Shown here one piece after another: positions 5,718-39,932 of a stretch of 64,000 bases of DNA; within the stretch, counting starts at the first letter, position 1, and every line of letters starts with the position of its first letter. The stretch is from Naumovozyma dairenensis CBS 421 (lineage: Eukaryota > Ascomycota > Saccharomycetes > Saccharomycetales > Saccharomycetaceae): contig NC_016484.1 of assembly GCF_000227115.2 (NCBI RefSeq), forward strand, positions 124,001 through 188,000, written 5' to 3'. The translations under genes were made by a program, and so were the position numbers. A model generated the notes under the pieces. It was not told the origin of the DNA, did no database searches, and saw only the letters and a list, made by a program, of their open reading frames with translations.

Positions 5718-7170
5718 TTTAAAGGAGAGTGTACCTTAAATATGTAAGAATTTTGCTTGGCTAGGTATAAAAAAAGATCTCCTCTTATTTGAATCAGCAA
5801 ATAATCGTTGAAACCTAGCCAGGTAAGTAAGTGTTTGTGATTTCAGTTTGCATTTTCTATAATAAGTGCAACTTTATGTTTTAACTTCTTAATAATGCCA
5901 AGACCTGTTGTAAATTTTGTGCACGTACCTTACGAAAAAAAAGCAGGGATCTATATTTATCTAACTTTACTGCACCGCCGTCTTTGCGAGTAAACAGTAT
6001 AAAACAATTTCTGCTTATGAGAGGGCAAAATGAAACATATTTATCTTAATGTTCATCGTACCCTTTGAAGGATATTTTTGTTTGTGCTGTATGAAAAGCC
6101 TGATTTAGTCTGTGAATGTTTAATAGAAGATTTTTTACTTTACGTTTTGAAGTTTATAGTAATACCCCTAGTAATCTTATCTGTCCTATAAGGTTGATTT
6201 AGTTGCTCTAAACCATACCTAAGTTAACAGACTTAAGGATGGGGTAGTATAAGCTGAATAGTAGTTATACTCTGATCAAGTGTAACGAGGATCATAATAA
6301 AGTGTCCTCCCCGCATAATGCGACACGCCCAGCTTGACGATCGTATCAAAAACTTCTAATGAGAACTTTGCAACTGAAGCTACTTCAGAGAACGTTACCA
6401 ATCCTAGAACCCTTTAGGTATTCACCATATCCCATTGTTATCCTAGCTGTCTATTATATAAGCGAACCTATTATTACTAGACTTATATATATTATACCTG
6501 AACGTATTAATAGATAACCCTGAACTATCAATAAGAAGTAAATTGCATCTAACATGTCCTTGCAGGCGAAGCAATCTTTACCTCTTCTTAATTGTAAAGC
6601 ATTTAAAAATTCTACTTAAATACATTATAACCTTTTTATCATTTATTATTCAACCTTAATTTTTAGCCATAAGGTACCTTGACGTCCCGTACCTTTATAC
6701 ATCTCTATTTTCTATCTTACGGCATCTGCGTATATAAATAGACTATAGAATTTATAATATATATGGATATCATGATAAAAATAATATAACATAACACAGT
6801 GGTGTCCTTCGCTTGAACAGGAAGCATATAATTATATGAAATACTCGAACTAAGTAATTTTTTATGACACGTTATTATGATAAACCATGACTGCTTGAAA
6901 ATCATTACATTATGTACAAAGGGTTCGGTGGAACATTGAAAGCCCTGTGATCCCTGGCGTATGGAATCTATTATCGTTACAGTTAAATTATATTCAAAAA
7001 AATGGTTCCAACTGAATGCAATAATTAATTAAAGTGTTGCAATATCGATGAGAAAAAACAGAAACCCTAAATGGCATCACATGTAGTTTTTTATTCCAGT
7101 TACTTTATCCTCGTATTACAAAAGCTAAGAAATAGATATATATACATATCCATACAATAAGGACTTCACA
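5718..7170. other. Gene-poor left inversion junction; possible solo LTR
   Basis: About 1.45 kb with no credible gene apart from the CKA2 promoter. A stretch around 6240-6556 looks like a decayed LTR: it has a TATA-like element (tattatataag, about 6453-6463). Its end (aataagaagtaaattgcatc at 6530-6549, then taaca) closely resembles 39216-39240 beside the copia fragment at the other junction. AAACCCTAAA, a Tbf1-type motif, lies at about 7062-7071. Confidence 0.35.
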
Positions 7171-7594
7171 ATGCAACAAATGAATAAGAATAATGAAACA
7201 CCAGAGGCAGCAGCCGGTACATATCTTAACAAGAGGGAGGTACCAACTGCTGAAGAACTCTCTGATGATGAATCAACTGGATTAAAAGGCTGTGTGTTCC
7301 TTACGGTCACTATCAGTATGGGTGTTGTTCAATGGATACCGGTTCATTTTTTTATTAAAAGAGGGATGTCACCCAATTCTGATACAAACAGTCATGATGA
7401 TTATTATAGCAATAACCTATATCGTCAGTGGACTAATTTGTTTCATAGCTATATTTAATACCAAAATGCCATGGAAAGGATTTTTGACTTTAGTTACTCG
7501 TTATTGGGCAATGGGGTTTCCGTCCGTTATAGCAGGGACTACTTTTACGATTATTCAGTTGTCGGGTGCTTACAATAGGAAAAAAATAACTTAA
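7171..7594 (+). pseudogene. Small multi-pass membrane protein gene split by a frameshift
   Basis: Two overlapping open frames make one plausible protein. The first begins at the ATG 7171 with a hydrophilic Glu/Asp-rich head and enters a hydrophobic segment (CVFLTVTISMGVVQWIPVHF). The second frame, without its own ATG, continues with two or more hydrophobic segments (IIIAITYIVSGLICFIAIF and FPSVIAGTTFTIIQL) and ends at 7594. The change of frame falls near a run of seven T at 7347-7353, so it could be a real frameshift or a homopolymer sequencing error. I do not recognise the family; spacing of the hydrophobic segments resembles the protein at 8570-9109. Confidence 0.45.
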
Positions 7595-8569
7595 GATTAC
7601 TGAAGAACATTAACTCTGCTATCTGGATTTATTCGCTATATATTCCATATTTTCACCAATTATCAAATATCAAATATCAAAATTATTAGAATGTAATTTG
7701 TAATTTGTAATTTACTTTTATTGTTAGTTTATGACAATCTTTTAGCCAGGTACAGGTTTGGTGCGTGTGTGTTAAGAGTAAATCCCTAATTCAAAGTATT
7801 CTTGATTGATTACGTACGTAATATATAGTATAATACTATAACAGATACCCAAAGGGTCCAGCGGTCAAAGACGTCCCAACATGGTTGCTTATATACGTTA
7901 GCTTATGACATAGCGTCCAATACAATACAGGACCCCTGACTGTTTACCAAGTGGTATTGACACGGCCGATGATCAATGACTGAGTTGCTCCGATGGTTGG
8001 CCGAATCATGGTAAACCCCATACTGAAAGACATATAACAAACAGGCTTGGATACAGTGTAATAATGCTAACAGTGTGTTACTTATTTTATATGATACACA
8101 AAAAAATTTAATACAAATAAACCAACCTCATAAAAAATTGATCATGATTTGTTTCCCACTTTTGACGTGCTTTTTCCTTGAATATGCCTTTAGATACAGT
8201 GTCACTATATGTAGAAGTCAAAAGCATTCATTCCTCTCAACATTTTTTAAAGCGAAACTCCGGTGACTTACAGTTTTAACGGCGCGTTTTAGGGGAAACT
8301 CCGATACATTCGAAAATCAAATAATTTTGTTAATGTGGTCTTTTGCTGTCATTATTTTGTGAGCATCGATTGTCAGTAATCACACACAAAAGATTAATAT
8401 AAAAATAAAATTGAGCTACCAACTTGAAGTTAGCTTTCTTCTCTTCTCAAATTAGAGGGAAATAAACAATACATATTTTGAACAATATTTTTCCTCTCCA
8501 CAAATTAAGGGAAAATAAACCAACACATTGTCTAAACAACATTATTTTCTGCAATTAATTCTTATTACT
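7595..8569. other. Intergenic region, no gene recognised
   Basis: About 975 bp, AT-rich, with the repeat atcaaatatcaaatatcaaa near 7662-7681 and atttgtaatttgtaattt near 7694-7712. The last 200 bp probably hold the promoter of the gene at 8570. The open stretch at 8075-8266 lacks coding character. Confidence 0.5.
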
Positions 8570-9109
8570 ATGACTGCTACACCATTAACCGTTGAAATGC
8601 AAAATATAAATCTTGAAACAGAAACTGTCCCAGTACCAGAACCTCACACCCCAAAACGAGGGGAGAAAAATGAAACAACAATTCCTTGGTACAAGGGTTA
8701 CAATTTTCGGTTACCAAAGATTATTATTGTTGACGATCAAAAACTACACAAAGGGGTAAGAAAAGTAGTAGTGAAAAAAAATCCCCGGTTTGTGATGCTT
8801 CTCATCTCCATTGTGGCTCTATTTTTTTCTGCCTTGGCTTTGTACTGGTCTCTCACTCTATACTACGACTGCGGCTCTGACTATAGGGTATTGATATCAT
8901 TAATCCTGGCAAGCTTTACACTAGCTCTCCGTATTCTAGACGTCGTCTTTTGGTATCTAAGTCTAAAACAGACCTTATACATCTTTGATCATCTTAAAGT
9001 CACTACCATTGTTTTGAGTATATGTTCTTCTACTTCTTTGTTGCTTTCTGGATTCAATAACATATATATGAAGCTGTTAAACAAACTTGGCTATGATAAA
9101 AGAAAATAA
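8570..9109 (+). CDS. Lineage-specific small membrane protein of unknown function
   Basis: A 179-residue protein; the start is the ATG at 8570 (the frame opens earlier only from a TTG). Residues 1-70 are hydrophilic and include the block PWYKGYNFRLPKIIIVDD and a basic stretch KGVRKVVVKKNPR. Hydrophobic segments follow at about 73-97, 105-131 and 143-160, ending in a basic tail. I do not recognise the family. A decayed paralogue at 38225-38745 on the minus strand keeps the same blocks (WYEGYDFRLPKI, HKGVRKVTVKKNP). That conservation of the protein sequence between copies argues that this ORF is a real gene. Both copies sit at the junctions of the inferred inversion. Confidence 0.7.
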   Translation: MTATPLTVEMQNINLETETVPVPEPHTPKRGEKNETTIPWYKGYNFRLPKIIIVDDQKLHKGVRKVVVKKNPRFVMLLISIVALFFSALALYWSLTLYYDCGSDYRVLISLILASFTLALRILDVVFWYLSLKQTLYIFDHLKVTTIVLSICSSTSLLLSGFNNIYMKLLNKLGYDKRK

Positions 9110-9215
9110 TAGGTAAAGCCTACCTATTTAGTTTTACAGTAATCAATAATTTAATTTTTTTTATTGATAGTATAAAGTTATCTAATTTTCATACTCTCTG
9201 CCTCGAATTTCGTTT

Positions 9216-10983
9216 TTATACATTAGATATATTATCCATATATTCAGACAGAAGGGAGATTAATAGTAGAAGATCGTAATCATCTCGTTTGAAGTCATAT
9301 AATGATGAATAGGTTTGGAAATTATGCATCAATATGTTCTGCTGTTTCAAAATGAATTCAGACAGAATAGTTTCATCCATATTGGGTACATATACCATTA
9401 GAGTGTTATAGATATTTCCTTTCATTGTCATTGGTACTATTCCAGCCTTAGTAGCTCGATGGTTTGTTCCAGTGAATGCTTACAATTCCATGTCCACAGA
9501 ACTAACGTCTTAAGAAAGTTCCAATGTACCAGTTACGCATATAGCACCACCACCATCAATTAACGCTGGAAGTGTAGCTTTTTCGAGATCATCGGAGAAG
9601 AGTAATTCATTATTATGCTCTAATCCTACATAACCAGCTAGATTTTTGAATTTATCTTTGACAGATTCAGGTAATGTAACACTAGCTTCTGTATTTGACT
9701 TAGCAGCGGGTTTACCAATTTTACCAAGTAATCTACTGTTTGTCTTCTTCGGAGCGTCTGCTTTAGTGTTAGCATTTAATAATTCTTTCCGTAAGTTTTG
9801 TATTATCTTATATAACTCATCGGTGGTATGGTGGACGGTACTTTACTTATTTAACGTTTTATTAGAAGATTTTTCTTTAGAGAATGCAGGATTACCTTTC
9901 CTATTATTAAGAGGTTTGCATTGACGATTTACATTATATTTGGAAGATGATTTGGCAAATCTCGTGTTAATATTGTTCAATGGGATCTCTGTATTGTTTT
10001 CACATAGCATATTTTCGTCATAGTCTTGATCAATCTCCATAATTACGTCAGTAAGCTTATATTTGTTGGAACGCCATTGAGCAACTTTCGCATCGCTTCG
10101 AGCACCATAGGTCTTGTAGTATTCGTTTGCCAGCTTTTGTTTGAATTCATCATTAGTAAATTTAAGTCTTGATGAAATCTTAAATAAAGCGTTTGTTTCA
10201 GTAATGCAGGTTCTAATATCCATACCTGGGGTAGCTCTATTTAGCCTAAAGTTATTGAAGGTAGAAACCGCAAGACGGGAACAATTAGCAGGAACGTACG
10301 TTCTTTTTAAGTCTTTCCAGTATTCATAAGAACTTTAATTGGTCATTGGACGCTTCTTTGGGGAAATTTTAACGAGAATATGTAAGACCAAGTTCTCGCA
10401 TACTTGGGTAAAAATTATAGTACTAAATTGGAAACTTTGGTCCTAAATTATAAGGTCTATCAGAAATTCGACATTCAATATAAGTGGCGTTGGCTTCAAC
10501 CATAGCATTAATATAGTTAACCTTCGAGAAGTAAGTGAAGTCTAAATCTTTGTAACGCTTATAGTTGGTTGTATTGATGTCAGTTCAACGAATGGCAGCT
10601 TCAATACGGTAATTTGGGGCAGTCCATTTCATAGCATTAATTTCCAACGGTCTCTTGATTCTAGTGGTTGGACTAGTTGTATTAGTTTCATTTTGAGAAT
10701 TGTCAGTTTCTTGAATCCCAGAAGTAGATTTGTCGTTAAACGTTGGATTATGAATTTCATTAAATATTAGCAAATTCTATACCATTAGCATCGTAAGGGG
10801 TATGTTCCAGAAAGCTGAACATAATGCTTGAAATTGAACAGTATCCATACATAGCATAGTAACATCGTTTAAATGATTCATTGCATGAAATGAAGTATTT
10901 AAACCAGGTAAGATTCCCGATTGGTAGGAAACACAAATTTCTAGACCAGACTTCTCCAGATTCATTCTCTGTTGAATTACCAT
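9216..10983 (-). mobile_element. Degenerate Ty1/copia-type retrotransposon relic (gag, protease, start of pol)
   Basis: Reading the minus strand from 10983 down, broken frames give a gag-like sequence including MDIRTCITETNALFKISSRL (from 10223) and an Asn/Lys-rich section. A protease-like block at about 9530-9600 follows (LPALIDGGGAICVTGTLE, resembling the D-S/T-G active site with the middle residue changed to Gly). Then comes IPMTMKGNIYNTLMVYVPNM, which resembles the 'VPG/VPN..ILS' segment that follows protease in copia elements. Stops and frame changes are frequent, and reverse transcriptase and most of integrase are missing. A matching fragment in opposite orientation lies at 38741-38945. 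Confidence 0.65.
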
Positions 10984-11799
10984 TTTAGAAGTCAGAAGAA
11001 GGATCAGAGTTAGAAGTTAACTTAGTTGAACGCTCAGCCTGATTAACTTCAGAGGTAAGCAAGGAATTAGCGCCATGTGCTGATTTAGCATAGAGCCACG
11101 GGGGTCTCTTTGTTCGTTTACCTGAGAGTTGTCATAATGATCTTAAGTGTCGTTAATGTTGATATTTTATGTATTGACCATGTTATAGTTATTTAATAGT
11201 GTATATGGTTGATTCACTATATCTATTTGTCGTTATATATTTATGTATTTTTGTATTGAAGCAGAGTCCTTCTAATGTTCTATCTTATTATTTTACCTTA
11301 AATTGCAATGGGTAAGTATTAAATAACTTTTAAGTAATTAGTAAAAGATCAACAACATGAACAACAATACTGGCACTCAAGCACACACTGACAACTCTCA
11401 GATAGAAAAGAAGAGCAACCTGATGACTCTAGTGCTACATTACCGCAGCTAATAAGCTTAATTTCCTAGTTGGGAATCCATACATACGCCCCAGAACATA
11501 CAAATAATAATATTTCATTGAAAAAAAAGGTAAAAATTATATCGACAAAGAACTAAATATTACATAAGTAAATAAAGGAATATGGTCTATAGTCTTACAA
11601 ATTGTAAAAAATGCAACCTTTATTATATCTTTTTTAATAACGGTAGATGAATGCGATAAAATGTAACAGTAGGGTATCTATCATATATTGATATTGTTTG
11701 TTTTTTTCTTTTTCTGTTTTTGTTTATTATCACGGAAAAAGGGTATTCATTATTCATTTAAGTTTTTTTTTTTTGTAACCTATTAAGGGTAAACTGGTA
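10984..11799. other. Intergenic region beyond the copia relic, no gene recognised
   Basis: About 800 bp. The part next to the relic (to about 11.1 kb) continues degenerate gag-like frames on the minus strand. The rest is AT-rich and could include a decayed LTR, but I could not define TG...CA ends. Poly-T tracts near 11700-11780 lie just past the RSB1 stop. Confidence 0.35.
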
Positions 11800-12948
11800 T
11801 TATTTCTTGAATGGATTTTTGAGCATTTTCTTAAAGAATGTCTTAGGTTTCTTGTCAAATCTTTCTACTACTTCTTTTTCAATATCAGAAACTGATAGCT
11901 TATTGTTTTCCAGATCATCATCAAAGGAGTTATCAGATCTAGTCTCAGGATCAACATGTCCTGTAGTAATTGGAATTGACGTATATTTCCCCTTGAAGGC
12001 GAATCCTGGATGGAAAATAGTAAATATTGTTGTTGCCAAAGTCATCATTAAGGCATCCAAAATGATAAAATACCATTCATGTGTAATTAAATATCCGGAC
12101 CAACCTTCAGATAGTTCAGCAAGACGATAACAACAACGTGTAAAGATACAAAGGACAGCTGCAGTCATTGCTAAAGTGAAGTAACGAAAAACCCAACGGT
12201 CAGGATCAATTCTTAGATCATGGAATTTTTCTCTATACAGGTAATCAATTTCTGATTGTCGTATCATTAATAATTGTTTTGTAATCTTTTTAGTGTTTGT
12301 ATGTTCAAATCTGACTTGAATATAAATACGGAATAAGAATTGGAACCAAAACAATAAAAAGAAAAACATTGATGCCACTTGAATTGCTAAACCAGCGACG
12401 AAAATGTTATCACCTGTCTGGGCAGATTTATTGACTCTCACTGCCATACCTGCAGTACCACCTCCTGCTGCTTGGATGGCCAAGGATATAATATCTGATG
12501 CAATGAAAATAAAAGAATATGCCATCGGTGAAGGTAATAAGGAGAAACGATGTCCATATATTTCAATTAATTTAGCTAATTGATAGTATATACCGCCCAT
12601 TGTGAAGACAGGCGCAATGGTTAAACAAACCATATTTAGTAGAAATGGATTCATTGCTGGTAAATTATAATGCGACCATGTTCTTCCTATATAACCTAAA
12701 ACTTCTAAAACACCTGTGCAAATAAATGCTATGGAGAACCACCATTGGCGATAATAGAGTTGTAATACTTGGATAGTTAGAAGCACACCCCATATTGCTA
12801 TCATGGAGATGTTGAATGCAACATTGGGTACCATCCCACTATACAGGGAAACTTTATGTCGTAAATGTTCTAGAATTTGTACAGTTGTGGCATTGGCTGG
12901 GAGTGTGTCCTTTATAAGGACGGTTGAGTTGGAATACAGACCAGACAT
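11800..12948 (-). CDS. RSB1: Sphingoid long-chain base transporter/translocase, RTA1-like family
   Basis: A 382-residue seven-transmembrane protein of the lipid-translocating exporter (RTA1) family. An N-terminal extracellular segment with Asn-x-Thr/Ser sites (NST, NAT) precedes seven hydrophobic segments. The family block NPFLLNMVCLTIAPVFTMGG and then FIASDIISLAIQAAGGG are characteristic. The C-terminal tail is long, charged and cytosolic. Rsb1 promotes release of sphingoid bases at the plasma membrane and is induced through Pdr1 in S. cerevisiae. The next gene is ETT1, as in YOR049C-YOR051C. The upstream region has two PDRE-like repeats. Confidence 0.88.
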   Translation of the reverse strand: MSGLYSNSTVLIKDTLPANATTVQILEHLRHKVSLYSGMVPNVAFNISMIAIWGVLLTIQVLQLYYRQWWFSIAFICTGVLEVLGYIGRTWSHYNLPAMNPFLLNMVCLTIAPVFTMGGIYYQLAKLIEIYGHRFSLLPSPMAYSFIFIASDIISLAIQAAGGGTAGMAVRVNKSAQTGDNIFVAGLAIQVASMFFFLLFWFQFLFRIYIQVRFEHTNTKKITKQLLMIRQSEIDYLYREKFHDLRIDPDRWVFRYFTLAMTAAVLCIFTRCCYRLAELSEGWSGYLITHEWYFIILDALMMTLATTIFTIFHPGFAFKGKYTSIPITTGHVDPETRSDNSFDDDLENNKLSVSDIEKEVVERFDKKPKTFFKKMLKNPFKK

Positions 12949-13887: not shown

Positions 13888-15195
13888 TCAATCTAGTAAG
13901 TTATCCAAAATATCTTGATACTTACCATTGGTAGCTCTATTGGCTTTCTTTAAGATTTCTTCAGCTTCTTGATATGCTTTTTTTTGCTCTATAGATTCAT
14001 TATCGCACAAATTACCAAATTCAATGCATGCTTCTGCTAATTGAACCCATGTTTCAGGATCGTCTTTGACTTGAGCCTTTCTCAAATACTTCAAGCTATT
14101 ATCAACCAATTCAATGGCTTCTCTTTGAGCAGCGTAAACAAGACCACCTTTATCTTTAGCAGCTATACTGTTCTGTTCGTCTTCATCATCACCATATTGA
14201 AGTTTTAAATATTGGGAACGTGGACTATCTGCGAATTTCATATATAATTCACCAATTTTTCGGGCAACGGGATGAATCAATTTGTCACTGCCATGCATTA
14301 TATCGAATAAAGCAATCAATTGTTCTTTCAACCACGATAAATCAGATTCATGATTCTTTTGAAACTTATATAATGGATGATCCTTTGCTAAGGTAATTGG
14401 TTCCAATTCTTCATCATCATCACTATCTAAACCCTCTTCAATATCGTCTTCATGACCGAAATTTTCAATAATATCTAATAGATCATCTGTTGAGTTCAAC
14501 ACTTCTAAAGTTAATGGTAAATCATTCTTATAGATAGAGAAGTTTTCCTTAGCTTTACCAAATTGTTCATAAAGTTTCAAATATTTTCCCTTTGATTCTT
14601 TACTTTTAACATTTAATTTAGAAATATATTCTAATGGTAGCCTCTGTAATAAGATCTTACTCATTACTAGTTTCAATAATTGAGAGTTAGGTATACAATC
14701 TAATCCATCTTGACATCTTTGTAAAGCCAAATCGAAAAATTGCTTAACTTCATTATCCATTTCATCATCATCATCACTTCCTTTTTTGAAGATAGTCAAT
14801 TCAGATAAAGCAAGGGCAAAGATGGCATAATATCTATCATCTTTATTCACCAATGCCTTTAATTTGGTAGCCTCTTCGCTCTTATCATTATTATTATTAT
14901 TGTTAATCAAACGCAAAATTCTATCACATTCATGAATGATACCATTCAATAACATTTCATCATCCTTATCAGATTCAAAATAAGTCTTCCATAACCCATT
15001 CAATTGGACGATCTCATTATCAGCATCTTCAGAATCTTGTAATTCAATTTGGATCTGATTACTTGGTGTCTTAGTTTCCGAAGTTGGAGTTGGTGATTCT
15101 GATGTAGATTTAACTTCAGGTGTATTTTCCTTTAAAAATTTTTGCTTCTTTTTTTGAGCTTGCTTTTTACCTAATCCTAGTGGTCTTTTTGCCAT
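13888..15195 (-). CDS. ETT1: Enhancer of translation termination 1
   Basis: A 435-residue protein starting MAKRPLGLGKK, the same beginning as S. cerevisiae Ett1 (412 residues). The frame stays open 34 codons further upstream, but that extension is not conserved, so 15195 is the chosen start. Ett1 is a nuclear protein linked to Tpa1 and efficient stop-codon recognition. The body is helical with acidic stretches (for example around the EDDIEEGLDSDDDEE segment) and a conserved block QLNGLWKTYFESDKDDE near residues 65-80. It lies between RSB1 and TMC1, as in S. cerevisiae. Confidence 0.93.
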   Translation of the reverse strand: MAKRPLGLGKKQAQKKKQKFLKENTPEVKSTSESPTPTSETKTPSNQIQIELQDSEDADNEIVQLNGLWKTYFESDKDDEMLLNGIIHECDRILRLINNNNNNDKSEEATKLKALVNKDDRYYAIFALALSELTIFKKGSDDDDEMDNEVKQFFDLALQRCQDGLDCIPNSQLLKLVMSKILLQRLPLEYISKLNVKSKESKGKYLKLYEQFGKAKENFSIYKNDLPLTLEVLNSTDDLLDIIENFGHEDDIEEGLDSDDDEELEPITLAKDHPLYKFQKNHESDLSWLKEQLIALFDIMHGSDKLIHPVARKIGELYMKFADSPRSQYLKLQYGDDEDEQNSIAAKDKGGLVYAAQREAIELVDNSLKYLRKAQVKDDPETWVQLAEACIEFGNLCDNESIEQKKAYQEAEEILKKANRATNGKYQDILDNLLD

Positions 15196-15812
15196 CTTCG
15201 TATCGCAATTATATTTGTTGGATCGTTTTCTTGGTAAGGTGCCAATAGGCATATTTGTATATAATGTATATACGTAGATCTTTATAAAATTTTTCATTAT
15301 TGTTTTAAGAAATTGTTTAAGTTTTCTTTTGGCTCGATGCGCGCCGCATTACGATAAATTTTACTTACAAATCTTTGTTATGTATGATGATGATGAATTT
15401 TTAAGGAGGGATCTTGTTCGAAATTGGATCAAAATTTTACATGAGCGTGGGAGCTCTAGCTTCAAGAACTTGTTCAGCTTGCTAAAATCGTATATTAGCA
15501 TAATAGCTTTGTTGTAGGACACATCTGAGTAACAAGCCATTTTAGTCTAAAGTTAGATATCACTAAAGAATAACGAGTTCATTTTTTTTCTTTGAAAAAA
15601 TTCAAATAGACCATATTTTATTATATATAACATCTAAAGTAGTCTATAAAAGTCTCTCTTTTTTATATAAATGGATGAATGGATGGATGGGTGAATGAAT
15701 GAGATTTATTGGGAGCCATTATTATTATTATTATTATTATTAACAATGTCCTGAGTAGAGTAATGGACCTTCGTGTTTCCTTCTCTTATGATTCTGATAA
15801 TGGTGTCTCTCT
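15196..15812. promoter_or_regulatory. ETT1 promoter and TMC1 3' region
   Basis: About 600 bp, no gene seen. It has an (ATT)n microsatellite at about 15719-15740 and an ATGGATG-type minisatellite at 15671-15700. The GC-rich patch gatgcgcgccgc at about 15336 is the only striking motif near the ETT1 start. Confidence 0.4.
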
Positions 15813-29900: not shown

Positions 29901-30353
29901 GGTGGATATCCTAACATAAATAGTCACTTCATTATTCTTGTTCGTAATATCGTTTCTAATGGTTCTCCATGGTACTAATTCTGATGGTTGTACCATTGTC
30001 TTTAATGCTGAGCGTAGTATGTTGGGATGATTGTTGATGAATGGCATTCCTAAAATAATAGCGGATGTTAGTGTAAATGGTGCGATAAGAGCCGAAAGGG
30101 TGAAAGGTTCACCATCAATAATAAATTTAACTTTGCAAGCATGAGTAATTTCTGACATAGTGCCATCTCCAGTTTTACAATGTATTGGTTTTGTAAGTTT
30201 CCTAGTGGTTAGATTGAGTCTGTTTGCCCATGTAGGGTCGATGATATTGGAGCTTGCACCTGTGTCTAGTAGGGCTTGTATTTTCTGTTTGTTGGCGAGT
30301 TTAGTAGTCACGTGTGGTAGTTCGTTGATGAGTGCTTGATGTTCATGGGACAT
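26952..30353 (-). CDS. Ty3/gypsy Pol polyprotein (protease, reverse transcriptase, RNase H, integrase)
   Basis: 1133 codons counted from the first ATG; the frame is open upstream into the Gag overlap, so the natural product is probably a Gag-Pol fusion. Aspartic protease LLDTGAS is at about 28-34. In the reverse transcriptase, FSKLDLVSGYHQ is at about 282-293 and YLDD at about 348-351. In RNase H, TTDASD is at about 496-501 and YTDHQSLK at about 563-570. The integrase has an HHCC zinc region (H...H...CPQC, about 705-746) and a catalytic triad D776, D836 and E872 (D-D-35-E spacing). A C-terminal module with GPFKIIEK follows. All signature residues are intact, so the enzyme may be active. Confidence 0.95.
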   Translation of the reverse strand: MSHEHQALINELPHVTTKLANKQKIQALLDTGASSNIIDPTWANRLNLTTRKLTKPIHCKTGDGTMSEITHACKVKFIIDGEPFTLSALIAPFTLTSAIILGMPFINNHPNILRSALKTMVQPSELVPWRTIRNDITNKNNEVTIYVRISTSDSSTEPPSEITKEFGDILVEKIPAHDEHTKTIHHQITLKEGATPVFQRAYRMAEEERKALEDELKDLMKDNKTSPSDSPFAAPVIYVKKKDGSRRLCVDYRRLNEITVKAKYPIPLIDDLFDQLRGATIFSKLDLVSGYHQVPIAEEDRYKTAFITQRGQYQWNVMPFGLTNAPATFQRLMNHVLRDYIGEFCIVYLDDILNYSKTNEEHIKHIRKIMEALRAHHLFAKKSKCSFFLHQVGFLGHVINATGIHSDPEKIECIKNWIAPKDNKSCQRFLGLIGYYRRFIKDFSTIAKPLREYANDKSKKIKWHEQQEFAFEKLKRALLEAPVLKPFDNNLDVVVTTDASDTAIGGTLELYKDGKFYGVVAYMSKALHGHELNWPIREKEFFAIVCCLEKWRHYLLGKKFKLYTDHQSLKYVLTERSFKLRLARWWDDLADYNFKIIHIKGKNNHVDALSRLNAIDTESTERTISRISLDPQHLTTLRKEYQKDPELSVIYSNLQKATPLPQKLVTIIKHYSIKDGLLYYSAKIPFDSRLVIPKGTIRQTLMHLHHDSLLAGHPGSFRTYQNLVHDYYWPNMVSIIEQYTKTCPQCQRTKHARVLPSGIFQPLAVPYRPWSSIGIDFVSGMKEVHKFNSVLVVIDRLTKMARFIPTKKTLDASDCADLLINHIICHHGVPDEIVSDRDKLFTGKIWDRLRQRLRIHLKFTTSYNPASNGQTERTNDTMRKIIASYTNQHATDWPMYCSVAAFAYNNTYQSSIKTTPFFANYGFHPRLPGFTNPILDHSQNNEEQQTPGTLQSNLDYHLQALQNIMVSIQTNMADAQDHQSIHFNKRHRVTNFKVGDSVLVHKDAYNNKPYTKFHHLWYGPFKIIEKMGDQTYRLNSQLGNRRTNTFHVRRLKLYHQRQHNSNNVPPTEYKNKLHLIERVVRTFRNSTCEVQWSNAETWDTSILPLHIIFNSEYRHLLDPYYDPVTKELTVTSS

Positions 30354-30462
30354 GATGGAATTTTGCAGTTCATTAATGAGTGTAATGTTTTCTATAGATG
30401 AAGAAGAAGAATGGTCACCTTGTGGTAAAACGTGTAATTTATTAATATATACTACAGGTGAC

Positions 30463-31248
30463 CTACTTAATTTTTGAACTCAAGTCACTAATAGGGATAG
30501 TGTTGGATCCGGACTTCCTAAAAGATTTTTGATTATAGCGATGTCTTCCAGGTTGTCTACCGTGTGAGTTACGGCATTCGTTAGATTTATGTCCTGAACG
30601 ACCACAATTGAAACAAACAATTGCTGATTGATTGAACTGGTGATTGCCTTTGGTATTGTCCCCATGGACATCACTGACTAGGCCACAGAATCTTGGGTCT
30701 AAGATAGAATCCTTGAACATAATGGATCTATTTTCTCCGATGACGATGGCTTCTTGGACATTTTGAGGGTTCTGGGAACGGATTGCATCTTGTAATCCTA
30801 ATTGTAACGGGAATAAGAAGCAAGCTAATTTCCATGATGAGTCCTTGAAATCGGCTGGGAGGAATGCTAATCTATTTTCGAAGTGATTAACATATTCTCT
30901 GTATGTTCTAATGTTCTTTGGTGGCGACATCAATAAACGGAAATTAGTAGCGATCTCATTGTTCTTGTCAGATTGGTACTTGGTGTCTAACGTAATCCAA
31001 AATTCTTCGTAAGAGTTGAAACTTGTGTTCTTCAACCAGTTAGCTGCGTTACCTTCGAAATAGTTGTAAAGACCAGCCATAAATTGTCTGTCTGAGACTT
31101 CAAACAATTCCTTGTTACCTTGCATAGCAGCTTTCCAAGTGAAATATTCATCTGGTTCGCCTTTAAATGTCTTGACAATCTTTAAGAAGTTGACCATGTT
31201 GCTTTGTTTCTCGTTGTTTTGAGAAGTAGATTCGATAGTTTGATTCAT
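30463..31248 (-). CDS. Ty3/gypsy Gag (capsid and nucleocapsid)
   Basis: A 261-residue Gag. The capsid-like part occupies about residues 1-200 (FKGEPDEYFTWKAAMQG, FRLLMSPPKNIRTYREYVNH). A single CCHC zinc knuckle, CFNCGRSGHKSNEC, is at about 212-225, followed by a basic Arg/His/Gln tail. It packages element RNA and assembles the particle. Pol follows in the +1 frame; a stop in the Pol frame just before the TTGAGTT heptamer (30477-30483) and the Gag stop at 30463-30465 confine the frame change to a few codons. Confidence 0.93.
   Translation of the reverse strand: MNQTIESTSQNNEKQSNMVNFLKIVKTFKGEPDEYFTWKAAMQGNKELFEVSDRQFMAGLYNYFEGNAANWLKNTSFNSYEEFWITLDTKYQSDKNNEIATNFRLLMSPPKNIRTYREYVNHFENRLAFLPADFKDSSWKLACFLFPLQLGLQDAIRSQNPQNVQEAIVIGENRSIMFKDSILDPRFCGLVSDVHGDNTKGNHQFNQSAIVCFNCGRSGHKSNECRNSHGRQPGRHRYNQKSFRKSGSNTIPISDLSSKIK
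30477..30483 (-). promoter_or_regulatory. Predicted +1 programmed ribosomal frameshift site, Gag to Pol
   Basis: The Gag frame reads TTG-AGT-T here. S. cerevisiae Ty3 shifts +1 at GCG-AGU-U, with AGU in the A site followed by U; the AGT-T part is the same. Reading GTT after TTG enters the Pol frame. The Pol frame has TGA across the TTG/AGT boundary, so a shift must occur at or after this point and before the TAG that ends Gag. Confidence 0.65.
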
Positions 31249-31299
31249 TGTAATGTAAATTGTGATATAGTTTATGATACGACTTGTAATAGGGCTCTT

Positions 31300-31330
31300 C
31301 CTGATGTGAATCGAACTGCGACAGCTACCA
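31300..31330 (-). other. Primer-binding site of the Ty3-like element
   Basis: Two bases inside the 5' LTR the element reads TGGTAGCTGTCGCAG, complementary to a tRNA ending in GCTACCA. The plus strand also carries ATCGAA, CCTGATGT and AGGGCTC in the order found in initiator tRNA-Met, so that tRNA is the likely primer. Confidence 0.65.
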
Positions 31331-31332
31331 AT

Positions 31333-32357
31333 TGTAAAATATGGGTTCGATAATAGATCAAAATCTAAACTTCTTAAAGGCAGAGAGTAGAATTTAGGAT
31401 TCTAGCGAATAGATGATTCGGGTTGCTCTCTTCATATATAGTATAAATAATAACTAATAAAGAGATATAAATAACTAACTAAAATACCTCTAATTCTAGT
31501 TCAACTTTCAGTCCTTTTATAATCTTTCCAGAATACTTTTTCTCTTGTCAATAACCTTTCTTACTAGCCATTACTTTTCTCTAACAAAGCTGTAATAGGT
31601 AATTTGGATAATACGTGTCGTTTTAGATTTGTTTCATGTCAGACCTCAATAAACTTTAAACTTCTCTGTTCCACGGTAATTCACTGGATTGGTAAAAATA
31701 GAAATAAAATAAAGTAAAATAAAATAAATTAAAGGTTAGTAGTATCTTTCTTCCCACAGGCACACAACTAGTTGTTCACACAATTGTGGCTTAGGATAAT
31801 GTTAATAAAGTAATAACTTAGTAAGTCAAATAAATTCTAGAAGTTCATATAGTATCTCGTTGAAGTCATGCATGCATAAAACAATATTCGTAATCATGAA
31901 CACCGCTCTCAAAGTCCTTTCGACTAGGTGCTCCGCAGGACACTCTAAATACTTGTAGGTTTGATTAGGAGAGACTAATCCAGAACGCCTGAGTAAACAC
32001 TCAGCAAAACCATACAACTTAACCGACCCAATACATAACTCTTGTACGCATGGCCGGCCGAAACCGTAGACGTGGCTGCAATNNNNNNNNNNNNNNNNNN
32101 NNCGACTTAATTCAACAAACGATATTCAATTATAATTCAATAAACGTTATACAGCTACAAACATGTATGGTGCATAACATAGTTCGGGTCATTACTTCGA
32201 ACCTGGTGAACTTCATAATAATAATTCTTGACTTGCTTTTCTAAAACGACTCATAACATCATGACAGTAATTACTCAAATAATAATAAATAAACATACTT
32301 CTTTGTGAAACTTTGGCATGACGCCAACAGTTCGTAATCCTAATCGGATATCTTACA
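31333..32357 (-). repeat. 5' LTR of the Ty3-like element (contains an assembly gap)
   Basis: Direct repeat of 25875-26918. Twenty Ns at 32083-32102 replace what is a 44-bp stretch in the left copy, so the gap length is a placeholder. It ends TCTTACA at 32357, followed by AGGAA. Confidence 0.92.
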
Positions 32358-32373: not shown

Positions 32374-32473
32374 TCCTTGTTAGCTCAGTTGGTAGAGCGT
32401 TCGGCTTTTAAACAACACATTCGTTTAAACCAAGGATACCGAAATGTCAGGGGTTCGAGCCCCCTATGAGGAG
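32374..32473 (+). tRNA. tRNA-Lys(TTT) with an intron
   Basis: A 100-nt gene. Acceptor strands TCCTTGT and ATGAGGA pair, the D arm has TAGCTCAGTTGGTAGAG and the B box GGTTCGAGCCCC is canonical. The anticodon TTT is at 32407-32409. A 27-nt intron (32411-32437) sits one base 3' of the anticodon, the standard position, and mature anticodon stem TTCGG/CCGAA forms across it. A T-run at about 32485-32490 is the Pol III terminator. The Ty3-like element ends 16 bp upstream. Confidence 0.96.
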
Positions 32474-32721: not shown

Positions 32722-33177
32722 ATGACAAATGCCACTCATCCTATAGATTACGATCTTGAAGAACCATTAACATCAAATGCTAGACCACTCACTAACGTCA
32801 CTCTAACAATTAGGCTAATCAAATCATTCCCGTATAGAAACGTCAAGAATATAATCTTACAAAATTATAATTTAGAAACAAAAACAGCTCATGATTTATT
32901 TGAAGATGTCTTAAAGCGTGTCCAAACAGAGGGTTCATTAAGGCCCTATCGTAATGTAAATTACGACACTATGAAAATCTATACTCATGCCCATAAATCC
33001 AAAACTATTAATTTGGTTATAAATTTTGATCATGATGAAGATTGGACTTTGGATGTTGAAAACGCCAATGGTAAGAAATTGTCTGAATATGATATTGAAA
33101 ATGAGACTGAAATTTCTTTATTCAACAATAAAGATTATATAGAATTCAAAGCAAATCCAATTGAAAAGTGGTTATAA
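32722..33177 (+). CDS. AIM29: AIM29/UPF0538 family protein
   Basis: A 151-residue protein of the UPF0538 family (human C2orf76), matching S. cerevisiae Aim29 (155 residues, YKR074W). Typical blocks are LTIRLIKSFPYRNVKN, KIYTHAHKSKTINLVINFDHDEDW and an acidic C-terminal part. The function is unknown; the yeast mutant affects mitochondrial inheritance. In S. cerevisiae it sits on chromosome XI next to YKR075C; here it lies between ASE1 and LPL1. That shows the interleaving of the two post-duplication tracks. Confidence 0.9.
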   Translation: MTNATHPIDYDLEEPLTSNARPLTNVTLTIRLIKSFPYRNVKNIILQNYNLETKTAHDLFEDVLKRVQTEGSLRPYRNVNYDTMKIYTHAHKSKTINLVINFDHDEDWTLDVENANGKKLSEYDIENETEISLFNNKDYIEFKANPIEKWL

Positions 33178-33661: not shown

Positions 33662-35176
33662 TTAATGATTTAGTAAATAATTTAGTAGTTGGCCTGCAAA
33701 TTCGACGTTTGCCACACTAGTCCTTCCAGTTTTATCTAACCCACTTCTAGCTACTATACCACCATGTGCATTAATTGCCTTTATATACACTGGTATACGA
33801 ATCCATTTTACTGACGAAAGATTCTTTAGCATCATATCTCTTTTCGAATCAAATTCCAAACGATTGAAATTTTGTTCCCAACTGTCATCATTATCGCTTG
33901 TTATTTCAGAGTATTTCTCTATAAAGGAATTCCATGAACCGTTATCCTCTTCATAATCATTAATATCAGCGTCCTCAGCATTCTCAATTTCATCTTCAAA
34001 TATGGATCCATAAACATCTTGCACATAAGTCTTGAAACTATCTGTAACGCTAAAGGTGGGAGACAATGTATCTATAGAGGATCCTGAATTACCAGATATT
34101 GATATGTCAACCTCTTTTAGTAAGACGTCATTGACCTCACCACTAGCTATCATTTTCCTATATTTTGATGCGGCAATGTAACTGTAAATAGTTCCACCGA
34201 GATTCATACATAGAGCAATTGGGAATACTAAGGTCATTGCAAGAGCAATCCATATCAAAGTTAATGCACTCTTTTTCAAAGTTTTTGTCTCTTTAGCTTG
34301 TGGTGGTTTTGATGATTTATCTAATTTATACAAATCGACAATTCTTGGCAAAATCCCCGTATATTTATTACCTGGAATATCATCTTCAAAACTATATTTG
34401 ATTTGATTCCCCGTGTCAATAAATGGATCATGGTCAGTAATGAAAGCACTATAAAATGCAACAGTTCTATCATTCTTAACATTAGCAAAAACAATCCTCC
34501 ACTTAAATTTCCGTAACCCTTTCAAATATTTCCCAGAACTTAATTGAACTAAAGTATCATTACTCCCAGTTAAAAACATTTCTCTCCCAGTCTTCCCCAA
34601 TAAAGATGATCCCAACACAGTCAAAAGTGGGTCCAGTATCCATCTCAATTTATTACTCAAAGGATTATAAAATCGTACTCCCAAATGTGGAGTAGCAAAA
34701 GTGACAAACAATTGAGGAACCATTTCACCAAAGACACTCAATAACTCTTTATCCATTGGATCATCACCAAAAATGGTCCCTATAAGAAACCTCGCTACAA
34801 GGCCACCCATTGAGTACCCACACACGCTTAATTTGGTAAATTTAAATTCAGGGTGGAATTTAATAAAACTAATAATTTCAAACAAAGTTCTGTATCCAAC
34901 GACTTCGATACCGTCGAATGTCTTGAAGAGAGCATTTTCCTTCGGAGAGTAGTATATTATGGGTAAAGTATCCTGAGTATCTCTTAGTTTATGTCTTAAT
35001 GTAGCTTTCATCGATTCCATGTGCTTGTAAGAGCCCCAAAGACCATGGAGCAGGATGAAGAGATGGGCTTCCCTTGGTGATTTTTTAGTTAGGGAAGAAT
35101 TCGAAGTTTGTGCACTATTCACAGGAGACAAAGAAGTTGATGCTGTTGATGATAATAGTAATGTATCTGCTGTCAT
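33662..35176 (-). CDS. LPL1: Lipid droplet phospholipase, alpha/beta hydrolase (ROG1 family)
   Basis: A 504-residue alpha/beta hydrolase. The lipase start block FILLHGLWGS is at about 40-49. The nucleophile elbow GYSMGG is at about 120-125 (Ser122), and FATPHLGVRF is typical of the DUF676/ROG1 group. A hydrophobic pair at about 300-345 (LTLIWIALAMTLVFPIALC) would anchor it to the membrane or lipid droplet. Lpl1 (YOR059C, 450 residues) cleaves phospholipids on lipid droplets. Neighbour SLD7 matches YOR060C. The extra length is mainly the Ser-rich head and an acidic insert near residue 390. Confidence 0.9.
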   Translation of the reverse strand: MTADTLLLSSTASTSLSPVNSAQTSNSSLTKKSPREAHLFILLHGLWGSYKHMESMKATLRHKLRDTQDTLPIIYYSPKENALFKTFDGIEVVGYRTLFEIISFIKFHPEFKFTKLSVCGYSMGGLVARFLIGTIFGDDPMDKELLSVFGEMVPQLFVTFATPHLGVRFYNPLSNKLRWILDPLLTVLGSSLLGKTGREMFLTGSNDTLVQLSSGKYLKGLRKFKWRIVFANVKNDRTVAFYSAFITDHDPFIDTGNQIKYSFEDDIPGNKYTGILPRIVDLYKLDKSSKPPQAKETKTLKKSALTLIWIALAMTLVFPIALCMNLGGTIYSYIAASKYRKMIASGEVNDVLLKEVDISISGNSGSSIDTLSPTFSVTDSFKTYVQDVYGSIFEDEIENAEDADINDYEEDNGSWNSFIEKYSEITSDNDDSWEQNFNRLEFDSKRDMMLKNLSSVKWIRIPVYIKAINAHGGIVARSGLDKTGRTSVANVEFAGQLLNYLLNH

Positions 35177-35593: not shown

Positions 35594-36355
35594 CTACAGT
35601 TTCTTGCAATTCTTCGAATGGGACCAATTGTTTTTTATTGGAGAATCAGATGAAATATCATTCAATATATTGCGCCGTATTTGATCTCTATGAGCAAACT
35701 CTGCAGCATCAAAAGTCATCTTATATAATCTGTGGAATCCAGAATTAGTATTAGGTATTCCTCGTAATCTTAGCCCACTAAGAATCAATTTAGTCAAAAT
35801 TTCATTGAATTGAACTTTACGTTTAATTGATTCAGTGTTTCTTTGCAATCGATTACGGTTCTCTTGTGATTTTAAAATTCTTGAATGATTTTTGCTGTTG
35901 CCTCCTCTGTTGCATGTGTCGGTATTATTAGAAAGATCTTGCTTAATTTGAACATCAAATTTGTTCTTTAATGTATAATCGATAGAAAACCAACAAATTG
36001 TATTGGCATTTCTATAAAACACAATGAATTCCTGAGACGGTACGTCACTAATAATTTCAATGACTATACCTCTATGTTTATATTTCAATTTAGAACTAAA
36101 ATACGACAATGTAGTAGCACTTCTAGTAAAGCAAACATTCTCCTGAGCATCATCGCGGATCCAGAATGGCAATTTAGAAAGATCAACGTATTGAATGAAA
36201 TTTCCATTCAGTTCAAGTACTTTATTTTTTTGAGGAAGCGCACTTCTGTTATCATGAAACTCATTATCTTCTATCCACAATTGGACATCTCTCAACTTCA
36301 ACTCAGTATGCCTTTCACCCAATCCTATCTTTAGGATTTTCAATTTCTTCAACAT
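35594..36355 (-). CDS. SLD7: Replication initiation protein Sld7
   Basis: A 253-residue protein when started at the ATG at 36353-36355, close to S. cerevisiae Sld7 (257). The frame is open for 46 more codons upstream, but that part is hydrophobic and not like Sld7. Conserved blocks are LKLRDVQLW near residue 20 and FIQYVDLSKLPFWIRDD near 50-66, then YFSSKLKYKHRGIVIEI. Sld7 binds Sld3 and helps Cdc45 load at origins. It is next to LPL1, as YOR060C is next to YOR059C. In S. cerevisiae the other neighbour is CKA2; here it is a tRNA and then RAT1, marking the inversion junction. Confidence 0.85.
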   Translation of the reverse strand: MLKKLKILKIGLGERHTELKLRDVQLWIEDNEFHDNRSALPQKNKVLELNGNFIQYVDLSKLPFWIRDDAQENVCFTRSATTLSYFSSKLKYKHRGIVIEIISDVPSQEFIVFYRNANTICWFSIDYTLKNKFDVQIKQDLSNNTDTCNRGGNSKNHSRILKSQENRNRLQRNTESIKRKVQFNEILTKLILSGLRLRGIPNTNSGFHRLYKMTFDAAEFAHRDQIRRNILNDISSDSPIKNNWSHSKNCKKL

Positions 36356-36588
36356 AGAAGGATAGACCTTTCTATAATCAATAAAACCAGCCTCAATCAA
36401 ATAATATACAATACAGCAGTCATTTATCTGCGAAATTGCAGTAGTCATAAGGCAAGTCGCTTGAATTGTCAACCAGTTTGAAATGACATCCATGACCAGC
36501 TCTTGAAAACGTATTCCATCATCTTCATCACACGGTCATCATTGTTGGACCTGTATGGCTAAAGGCAAACATTTTATCAAGAAATAAG

Positions 36589-36660
36589 ACTTGCGTGGCG
36601 TAATGGCAACGCGTCTGACTTCTAATCAGAAGATTCTGGGTTCGACCCCCAGCGTGAGTG
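36589..36660 (+). tRNA. tRNA-Arg(TCT)
   Basis: A 72-nt intronless tRNA. Acceptor strands ACTTGCG and CGTGAGT pair with two G-T wobbles, the anticodon arm is CTGACTTCTAATCAG and the B box is GGTTCGACCCC. The discriminator base is G. A T-run (36665-36670) follows as the Pol III terminator. The gene sits beside the right inversion junction. Confidence 0.96.
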
Positions 36661-38224
36661 CTTTCTTTTTACCCCTTCTTTTTATATCTGTAAAGTCCTT
36701 ACTAATTGTCACGATTTTGTGATATATTACCTCACCACGATCTATAGGCCGCATTCTTATTTAACAGCCGAGTATAACTCAACTTACCCTGCACCTTGAT
36801 TCTTTATAAAAAATTTATAGACGTCTATGATATTAACTCTTTTACGTCTGTTATGACCAGTTTGGGTGAAGTTGTGTCCTTATTATCTTGACTACCTTGA
36901 TAATNNNNNNNNNNNNNNNNNNNNNNNNNNNNNNNNNNNNNNNNNNNNNNNNNNNNNNNNNNNNNNNNNNNNNNNNNNNNNNNNNNNNNNNNNNNNNNNN
37001 NNNNNNNNNNNNNNNNNNNNNNNNNNNNNNNNNNNNNNNNNNNNNNNNNNNNNNNNNNNNNNNNNNNNNNNNNNNNNNNNNNNNNNNNNNNNNNNNNNNN
37101 NNNNNNNNNNNNNNNNNNNNNNNNNNNNNNNNNNNNNNNNNNNNNNNNNNNNNNNNNNNNNNNNNNNNNNNNNNNNNNNNNNNNNNNNNNNNNNNNNNNN
37201 NNNNNNNNNNNNNNNNNNNNNNNNNNNNNNNNNNNNNNNNNNNNNNNNNNNNNNNNNNNNNNNNNNNNNNNNNNNNNNNNNNNNNNNNNNNNNNNNNNNN
37301 AGTATGTTTATCGATGAGTATGCCTATCGATGAGTATGTTCCTTTCGGTGATGATATTCTCTTCTTTCTATAATCTAGGTTCCTAGGGATCTAGTTGTAT
37401 GTTTTCTTTTCTTTTCTTCTATAAATGCGTATCAAGATAACTTCAGATTCAAATTTCCCATTTCAATGTCTCTATATATATATATATATGGTATTCGCTG
37501 AAACTCATCGAACCCATTCAGAAAGCGATGCCATGGAAATTTTCGCTCTTAAAATATACACAGTTTTTCACTTCGTTGGTCACCTTCGGGGAACGCGACA
37601 CGGAAAAGGCCCAAATGGCCTAGAACGTGACAACTAAGAAATAGTTAGGGTGACACAAAGTGTTCTAACTCTACCCCAAAACTATACCGCATAAACTAAA
37701 AACATTCCACAGTTATTGGGGAGAGATGTAAAGTTCTATATAAAGCGTTGTTGTATTTGTGGATTCGAAAGCAAAATTATCTCATTTCCATGTTTTTTTA
37801 ATCCAAAACTTCCTTCTTTTCTTTATTGTCTTTCAATACTTCCATATGTTAGTGGATAACTTAACATCCTCAAAACGTGATTATTATTGACCCAAACTTT
37901 TTGCTTTTTTCACGTTCTGAGAATGTACTGAAGTTTTATGGAAATAATCTATTTGAACCATTTTTCAACTATTGTCTGTGACACAATTATTAAATGTGAA
38001 TTAGATGTATAGAGGATTTCGATATATGCTAACAGTATTGGTAAACTACTCATATCTCCCAATTATAAAGTCACATAAACTAATATAATTGGGAAGTATG
38101 ACAAATAAAATCTATAATTATGCATAGTGATAGGTATGGTTAACATATTTTATTTTATATTTCAACCAAAGAAATTCGGACTTCAAAAGAAGGAGAGACA
38201 ATTTCTAAAGAGACACCACGGTTT
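36661..38224. other. Right inversion junction with assembly gap and minisatellite edge
   Basis: About 1.56 kb without a recognised gene. An assembly gap of 396 Ns spans 36905-37300. Right of the gap, two and a half copies of a 16-bp repeat (GTATGTTTATCGATGA-type) remain at 37302-37341, suggesting the gap is a collapsed minisatellite. TATATA stretches lie at 37471-37486. Reading frames across the Ns are artefacts. Confidence 0.55.
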
Positions 38225-38745
38225 TGATACCTATATATATAGGTCGTCGAATTCTTTAAATCCAAAAATATCAAAGAAATAAAAGCACATATATCTAAAA
38301 CCACCGTAGTGGTTTTTTACGTGGGAGTAAGTATACACAGTCTGTTTTAGATCTAGTAGAAAAAAAGAGGAAATCCAGGAAGCTAAGAATTCCTGCACAA
38401 GTTGCGATGACCAGTGCTATACATACGCTGTTCCCAGAGCCATGTTTTCAGTACAGAGTGAAAGCCCAGTAGAAAGCAAAGCCACTGAAAAGTATGGCCA
38501 AAATTGAAACTAGCAGCGTCACAAAACATGGATTCTTTTTTACCGTTACTTTTCTCACTCCTTTGTGTACCTTTCGGTCGTCGAGAGTAATTATTTTTGG
38601 TAACCTGAAATCGTAACCCTCATACCATGCCGTTTTTTTAGCCTTTTTCTCCCCCTTCTTGTGAACCCCCCATTTCTTGTTCCGGAGTAGTATCTTCTTT
38701 GTCAGGATTCAAACTTTTCATTTCAACGGTTGATGGTGTAGTGGA
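38225..38745 (-). pseudogene. Decayed paralogue of the membrane protein at 8570-9109
   Basis: Read from about 38745 down the minus strand, the frames align block by block with the 179-residue protein at 8.6 kb. PSTVEM corresponds to PLTVEM, WYEGYDFRLPKI to WYKGYNFRLPKI, HKGVRKVTVKKNP to HKGVRKVVVKKNP and FVTLLVSILAILFS to FVMLLISIVALFFS. The start codon is ATT, there is an in-frame stop after the first hydrophobic segment, and frame changes occur near 38640 and in an A-run near 38318. It abuts the copia fragment at about 38741. Confidence 0.75.
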
Positions 38746-38945
38746 ATTGTAAGCATTCACTAGAATAAACCATCGAGCTACTAAGGCTGGAATACTACCA
38801 ATAACAATGAAAGGAAATATCTATAACACTCTAATGGTATATGTACCCAATATGGATGAAACTATTCTGTCGAAATTCATTTTAAAACAGCAGAACATAT
38901 TGGTGGATAACCTAATACCGAATCTGCCGTTGGTTTTCGAATAAC
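38741..38945 (+). mobile_element. Ty1/copia-type fragment, inverted relative to the relic at 9.2-11 kb
   Basis: About 200 bp closely matching the reverse complement of roughly 9310-9490, with a handful of differences. It encodes the same post-protease block (GNIYNTLMVYVPNM). The match starts abruptly at the edge of the membrane-protein pseudogene. Further right, 39216-39244 resembles an LTR end (catctaacaaca), which would fit a 3' LTR in plus orientation. Confidence 0.75.
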
Positions 38946-39932
38946 ATCAATTTGATTATATTGTTTAGAGCAGATAAACCGACTAATGAATATATCCAGC
39001 CAGTTAAAAAAATTGTGTTTAATCTTCTCTGATTTCTTTATAGGTGAGAGTAATATAAAATCATGTAAAATGTATATGAAAGAAAAGTCCTCGCTTATAT
39101 ACTTGTAAAATTTAACAGCACATCACATCACGTTGTGTATACGGCATGATTTAATATTCATATTAAATTGCAATAACATATAACTGGACAAATTAAATGA
39201 TAATGCTGGACTAGTAATAAGAAGTAGAATTACATCTAACAACATATTTTTCGATAATCTTTTGTTTATTCCCCCCTAAAAATATATTTATTAGGAAAAG
39301 TAATCATTTTTATTTGGGAAATATAAATTTTCGGTACGAGAAATAAACAGTAAATCAACTGAAAAAAAGTCTTCTATTTATTTGACCCAATAATACCACA
39401 TTGGTAACGAAAACCCACAATTCAATTTAGAACTCTATAAAAAACTTAATCCCATCTTAGAACAAAGCCAATCGTTGTTTAATATGAAAATAATAAGACT
39501 ATTTAAAATAGTTGTAATTTCCACAACAGTACGTAGTGGCTTCCCCTTTAATTAATATATAATTTTAAATACACGAGTAGTTTATGAAGAGAGGGGTGCT
39601 GGATTAATTAAGATTGGCTCTCAAGATAATATTTTTTCAAAATACAGCTTTCACAAGTTTCGGAATTCTCTAGAAGATGATCCTTTCTGTATTTGAATTT
39701 ATTCATTTCCATTGACATTAAATTAGGTTTATATCTAAATTTTAATTATCGCTCATTACGAATTTGAAAAATTTTAAGCGCCTATTATGGATCTCATCTA
39801 TAAAACACATAGGGTATACAGTTCTCATCAGAATATGATGATCAGGATAAGACAGATAATTAAAATATTCCAAGCTGTAAAAGGCAAGAAACCAATTTCG
39901 GTACCTATAAAAGACGTTGAAACAACAACAAC
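38946..39932. promoter_or_regulatory. RAT1 upstream region; possible LTR remnant
   Basis: About 990 bp. The left third may be an LTR remnant ending near 39244; the remainder is AT-rich and contains the RAT1 promoter. The ORFs that overlap the RAT1 start are shadows. Confidence 0.4.

Follow-up and report, generated by a model that had tools for sequence, protein, structure and literature searches.

In a 64,000-nucleotide stretch of Naumovozyma dairenensis CBS 421 (contig NC_016484.1, positions 124,001 to 188,000; hereafter the window), the block of genes from RSB1 to SLD7 is inverted relative to Saccharomyces cerevisiae, and the corresponding block is inverted as well on the sister track, that is, on both tracks left by the whole-genome duplication (WGD). 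Each track would have undergone an inversion of its own, the two overlapping, at breakpoints marked by transfer RNA (tRNA) genes and by end joining rather than by recombination between the repeats at the junctions; the probability of this reading is put at roughly 0.5. The genome searched comprised 11 contigs (13,527,580 bases), in which the window is C6:124001-188000. Its genes were called from open reading frames (ORFs) and Pfam matches, and in all comparisons the S. cerevisiae gene order is the one implied by systematic names (YOR038C to YOR065W; YKR067W..YKR075C).

The window reads CKA2, then RSB1-ETT1-TMC1-VHS3-ASE1-AIM29-LPL1-SLD7, then RAT1-STD1 (Table 1). With respect to S. cerevisiae, the stretches CYT1-CKA2 and RAT1-HIR2 run the other way round, and only RSB1 to SLD7 keeps its strand. 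The initial annotation had described this pattern and placed the breakpoints at CKA2/SLD7 and RSB1/RAT1; the order and strands of the ORFs with their Pfam matches bear out both statements, and an inversion of about eight genes is confirmed at the level of gene order. The gene at the left edge is well identified: the best 60 of 87 PDB matches of CKA2 were all named casein kinase II or CK2, alpha or catalytic subunit. The YOR062C-like gene, IRC23 and WHI2 had no Pfam match, and their names rest on position and inspection by eye.

The sister track, which had no place in the initial annotation (nor had the tRNA-Lys gene, AIM29 and the solo long terminal repeats, LTRs, treated below), was read on contig C8 (C8:137001-177000; ORFs of ≥110 amino acids that matched Pfam or had an ohnolog). 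When the VHS3, STD1 and YOR062C-like proteins were searched against the genome, their ohnologs were placed on C8 at ∼150, 171, and 140 kb, respectively, with order and strands unchanged from the window. Read from the left, C8 carries a YKR075C-like gene (+), a CKA2-like gene (−), tRNA-Lys(UUU) (−), MET1 (+), and a YKR070W-like HAD gene (+), followed by DRE2 (−), SIS2 (−), TRM112 (+), NOB1 (−), SGT1 (+) and two unnamed ORFs, and finally BET3 (+), a GPT2-like acyltransferase gene (−), a methyltransferase gene (−), tRNA-Glu, MTH1 (+) and a WHI2-like gene (−). Five pairs (YOR062C/YKR075C, CKA2, VHS3/SIS2, STD1/MTH1 and WHI2) agree between C6 and C8 in order and strand. The two contigs therefore show the double conserved synteny with complementary gene retention that identifies them as WGD sister tracks. 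Measured against what we take to be the order on S. cerevisiae chromosome XI (GPT2, BET3, MET1, YKR070W, DRE2, SIS2, AIM29 and YKR075C), MET1 to SGT1 on C8 is inverted relative to both of its flanks. Thus, both tracks have the corresponding block inverted. Each track also retains a CKA2-like kinase (4674-5717 and C8:141913-143022), the two being 64% identical.

For the inversion on C6, a cause had been suggested from the outset, namely, ectopic recombination between inverted repeats at the two junctions. When the junctions were compared with each other by blastn, three matches were obtained: a 169-nucleotide copia piece (C, 9322-9490, versus C′, 38910-38742; 94.7% identity, nine differences, E 9e-71), an orphan membrane-protein gene (M, 8577-9057, versus its degraded copy M′, 38741-38256; 68% over 488 aligned columns, E 1e-38), and an LTR scrap of 63 nucleotides (6493-6554 versus 39179-39241). 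The scrap is in direct orientation; C and M are inverted, as ectopic recombination requires, and the predicted presence of inverted copies at both junctions was thereby recovered. Their resemblance exceeds chance: matching segments of M were recovered at five places in 13.5 Mb (a lower bound), and no other sequence in the genome matches C nearly as well as C′ does (the next one reaches 79%). As also foreseen, the junctions do not form a simple palindrome: read in the same sense, the order is M-C on the left and C-M on the right. C′ and M′ are joined without microhomology, at about codon 3 of M′.

That recombination between the inverted M or C copies flipped the block, and that a further event then scrambled the junctions, is nevertheless rather unlikely. 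It could draw on the orientation of both repeats, on the spread of M (at least six matching segments at at least five places, four of them on C6) and on C/C′ being the best pair genome-wide. However, the relationships among the M copies point elsewhere. In a comparison of five copies (494 gap-free columns), 71 sites divided them two against three; 24 of these joined the copies at C6:266k and C6:338k, 18 joined the left M with the copy at C4:153k, 9 joined M′ with C6:266k, and only 5 joined the two junction copies. FastTree returned the same groups, with support of 1.00 for 266k plus 338k and 0.82 for the left M plus C4. In addition, the left M belongs to a unit of two genes, X-M, which occurs in the same order at two other sites on C6, C6:266k (locus L044, C6:264925-268701) and C6:336-338k (locus L043, C6:336297-340269). 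With moderate confidence, we regard the junction copies of M as belonging to a dispersed family rather than as a pair that the inversion created. On these site patterns, M was set aside as a probable recombination substrate, although raw identity places the left M closest to M′.

For C, the flanks are informative. A copy on C5 matches 9276-9436 and thus runs across the edge of C at 9322, and the reading frame of the left relic, interrupted by two stops, runs across the other edge at 9490, in a region that we take to be like the Ty1 protease. C accordingly lies within a longer relic (for the 9490 edge, by frame only), whereas C′ is bordered by M′ on one side and by DNA without copia likeness on the other. 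As the flanks have not been exchanged, a crossover in C is not supported. A staggered-break inversion with inverted duplication was considered as well and rejected, as C is internal to the left relic and not at the fusion point (again by frame at the 9490 edge). At two of the nine differences between C and C′, the C5 copy agrees with C′, which implies that C′ was not copied from present-day C. We take C′ to be captured or copied filler; its source would be the copia relic or an element related to it, and it would have been joined directly to a broken copy of M.

Neither M nor C was found at the C8 junctions in searches of the genome against itself. The right one, SGT1/BET3 (C8:157198-160466, free of N), matches only itself, and the left one has seven other matching places, all of them within its tRNA-Lys. 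As the C8 track is inverted without these repeats, those at the C6 junctions are probably later or incidental rather than the cause. The initial annotation had named a sister species with the same adjacencies but no repeats as the case that would speak against recombination; such a case was nearly found, an overlapping inversion without such repeats being present in the sister subgenome rather than in another species. Taken together with the 5 of 71 sites in M and the unexchanged flanks of C, it leaves the proposed recombination unsupported.

Whether one event or two lies behind the inverted tracks depends on the breakpoints. A tRNA gene is located in a breakpoint interval on each track, tRNA-Arg at SLD7/RAT1 on C6 and tRNA-Lys at CKA2-like/MET1 on C8. 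A tRNA-Lys(UUU) gene is also present on C6, but inside the block, beside AIM29; its counterpart on C8 lies toward CKA2, at the breakpoint, and its strand is that of the un-inverted flank. S. cerevisiae presumably has tRNA-Lys(UUU) genes near both regions. If the C8 gene is at its ancestral place, the left breakpoints are tRNA-Lys/SGT1 on C8 and SLD7/CKA2 on C6, and two inversions follow. The right breakpoints, BET3/MET1 and RAT1/RSB1, may be one site.

A single inversion near the WGD, fixed in both tracks by homeologous exchange or through the sorting of a polymorphism present in the early tetraploid, with the C8 tRNA-Lys moving later, is unlikely. It would explain why the corresponding interval is inverted on both tracks and why the right breakpoints may coincide. 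NOB1, SGT1 and AIM29 also fit, as they are on tracks opposite to those in S. cerevisiae, which would have the lineages split while these genes were still duplicated. However, the position and un-inverted orientation of the C8 tRNA-Lys indicate a different left breakpoint, and PMC2675101 reports no rearrangement common to all post-WGD species. To gauge coincidence, inversions were simulated under two length models, each track receiving an assumed 35, 75, or 150 of them. For 1 to 10% of inversions, the other track had one whose ends both fell within four to five loci (0.5 to 13 pairs per genome); the ends were identical for 0 to 0.15% (0.01 to 0.16 pairs per genome). Identical breakpoints by chance would thus be improbable under the assumed numbers. 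Ends that nearly match are by themselves weak evidence for a link; the near-match seen here is only mildly surprising, and an exact one would be striking. Doubtful, too, is the wider alternative that a single inversion around the time of the WGD was fixed in both subgenomes by homeologous exchange, or that one pair of fragile sites gave way on each track independently.

It is also conceivable, but distinctly unlikely, that the order seen here is ancestral and that S. cerevisiae inverted both of its tracks. Without the tRNA-Lys marker, event counts made by hand tie. With it, an S. cerevisiae-like ancestor needs 2 inversions, compared with ∼4 for a C6- or C8-like ancestor, and two matching inversions would be demanded of S. 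cerevisiae.

The SLD7/RAT1 junction contains a run of 396 N (36905-37300), at which the initial annotation had allowed for a mis-assembly. A false join here is very improbable. The gap does lie within a dispersed LTR with ∼20 other copies, a usual place for wrong joins. However, of the 21 matches to the sequence left of the gap, 20 have a nearby match to the sequence right of it, in the same order and on the same strand, and ACTAA is present at both ends of the element (the 5′ end being one nucleotide out of phase). Both sides of the gap are thus one collinear solo LTR, which argues for, but does not prove, a single insertion and a correct join, and mis-assembly was rejected as the main explanation; the concern is mostly answered. 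Moreover, there is no N at CKA2/RSB1 or at SGT1/BET3 on C8, whereas a gap of 20 N interrupts the remaining junction of C8.

On the preferred reading of two inversions, the RSB1-SLD7 block on C6 would have been inverted once in the Naumovozyma lineage, and the MET1-SGT1 block on C8 in a separate, overlapping event. Both would have used intergenic breakpoints marked by tRNA genes (tRNA-Arg on C6, tRNA-Lys on C8), breakage and end joining at these sites being the likeliest cause. The C6 junctions would have gathered solo LTRs, the copia relic and the X-M copies before or after the event. The observations behind this reading are the gene order of both tracks, the repeats present, the clean join of C′ to M′ and the site patterns of M; the order in the ancestor, how many events there were and when, and end joining itself are inferred. 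Several observations weigh against this reading. The C/C′ pair (95%) has no equal in the genome, and its inverted orientation is what an event mediated by C would leave; the continuity of the relic at 9490 is read from its frame and the presumed likeness to Ty1 protease, not from an intact copy. By raw identity, the left M is closest to M′ (67.9%), followed by 338k (64.2%), C4 (62.5%), and 266k (60.2%), which speaks for recombination between the two; this is probably due to the long branch of the left M, and M′ itself is closer to 338k (75.0%) and 266k (73.0%) than to the left M. The tRNA scan found no tRNA gene at two of the four junctions, CKA2/RSB1 and SGT1/BET3. That the left breakpoints differ presupposes an ancestral position for the tRNA-Lys of C8, and tRNA genes can move; the 20-N gap (C8:143548-143567) is at the left junction of C8. 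Finally, the ancestral order is taken from S. cerevisiae gene names, and the comparison is within one genome.

Ty complementary DNA (cDNA) can be captured at double-strand breaks in S. cerevisiae. The 169-nucleotide copia piece, with its clean end joined to a broken gene, is alike in this respect; unlike simple capture, the nearest relative of C′ is at the other breakpoint, 29 kb away. Capture of cDNA fragments of transcribed genes at such breaks is mentioned in PMC2675101, where 73 inversions are inferred on the S. cerevisiae lineage from its ancestor. The inversions described there resemble the present one in involving a block of ∼10 genes with breakpoints at or near tRNA genes; they differ in that here the corresponding block is inverted on both WGD tracks of one genome. 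Inversions of this size that have a tRNA gene at one end are ordinary, and the overlap on both tracks is less so. The Drosophila inversion mediated by the transposon Galileo, as presented in PMC2775673, likewise has inverted repeat copies at both junctions. Here, in contrast, flanks were not exchanged, the junction copies of M do not group, and the sister track is inverted without repeats. Among the matches listed in searches of the open-licence literature, no account of an overlapping inversion on both tracks was found, and those on inversions in ohnologous regions included none on this locus; no printed gene order of S. cerevisiae or another yeast for these loci was found either, and the consulted portion of PMC3141009 makes no mention of the region. 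Repeats at inversion junctions are not necessarily the cause of the inversion, and a sister region within the same genome can argue against such a cause without recourse to other species. If the breakpoints proved identical on both tracks, the locus would offer a direct test of post-duplication exchange between sister chromosomes versus inherited fragile sites.

Table 1. Features of the window (positions in window coordinates).
Feature	Position	Strand	Basis or remark
CYT1	3-503	−	ORF/Pfam
YNG1-like PHD protein	1324-2148	+	ORF/Pfam
YOR062C-like	3566-4267	+	No Pfam match; named by position and by eye
CKA2, last gene of left outer block	4674-5717	−	Pfam Pkinase
Solo LTR, family A	6189-6555		Repeat matches
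X-M two-gene unit (X broken; M open, 8570-9109)	6735-9162	+	blastn, 74-78% to units at C6:266k and C6:336-338k
Solo LTR, family B, inserted between X and M	7770-8072		9 other near-full-length matches
M, orphan membrane protein, 179 amino acids	8570-9109	+	Hydrophobic peaks; at least 5 genome places
Copia relic (LTR piece, gag, protease region, with stops)	9170-11290	−	Matches C10:781144, C2:1274965; reading frame
C, 169-nucleotide piece common to right junction	9322-9490	−	94.7% to 38910-38742
Inverted block, RSB1 to SLD7	11800-36493		Strands versus S. cerevisiae names; Pfam
RSB1 (RTA1 family)	11800-12948	−	
ETT1 (Nro1)	13888-15297	−	
TMC1 (AN1)	15813-16277	−	
VHS3 (Flavoprotein)	17332-19425	−	
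ASE1	20259-23264	−	
Ty3/gypsy element inside block, LTRs ∼1.03 kb	25875-32357	−	LTR pair; Pfam RVT_1, Integrase_H2C2, Ty3_capsid
tRNA-Lys(UUU) with intron, beside AIM29	32374-32473	+	ARAGORN, introns allowed
AIM29 (DUF2340)	32722-33177	+	
LPL1 (DUF676)	33662-35176	−	
SLD7	35594-36493	−	
tRNA-Arg(UCU)	36589-36661	+	ARAGORN
Solo LTR, family T, enclosing 396-N gap	36706-37632		Dispersed-family matches on both sides
M′, degraded M copy, cut at about codon 3	38256-38741	−	Match to M
C′, 169-nucleotide copia piece abutting M′	38742-38910	+	Match to C
Short dispersed repeat	39038-39172		11 other matches
RAT1, first gene of right outer block	39933-43037	+	Pfam XRN_N, XRN_M
STD1	44197-45645	+	
DBP5-like	46569-47699	+	
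TOM6	49398-49604	−	

Beyond TOM6, the window continues with CUE5, a GLO4-like gene, CKB2 and HIR2. Between YNG1 and the YOR062C-like gene (2148-3566), where RPL3 would presumably be expected, the ORF lists contain no ORF of its size; other places were not searched for it. AIM29 is between ASE1 and LPL1 on C6, and NOB1 and SGT1 (C8:154046-157197) are on C8. In S. cerevisiae, we take AIM29 to be on chromosome XI, that is, on the sister track, and NOB1 and SGT1 to be in the corresponding stretch of chromosome XV; the opposite distribution looks like reciprocal loss of WGD copies. At the SGT1/BET3 junction of C8, two ORFs (C8:157328-157822 and C8:158572-159003) had no Pfam match, one of them with a signal-peptide-like start by eye.

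The CKA2/RSB1 junction contains no N. Its family A solo LTR has >20 other matching places (among the best 40 of 119 candidates), and its family B solo LTR is not present in the X-M units at C6:266k and C6:336-338k. M had no Pfam match, and among 5.8 billion proteins only M itself was found. X is one frame of 139 amino acids at C6:336-338k and two short frames in the window. The X-M units are small orphan membrane proteins spread on C6 and unequally decayed, and the one at C6:266k adjoins a P450 gene (ERG11-like by eye). Ty3 sits upstream of tRNA genes. The Ty3/gypsy element inside the block ends 16 bases before tRNA-Lys, and its two LTRs differ at ∼31 of 1003 compared sites.

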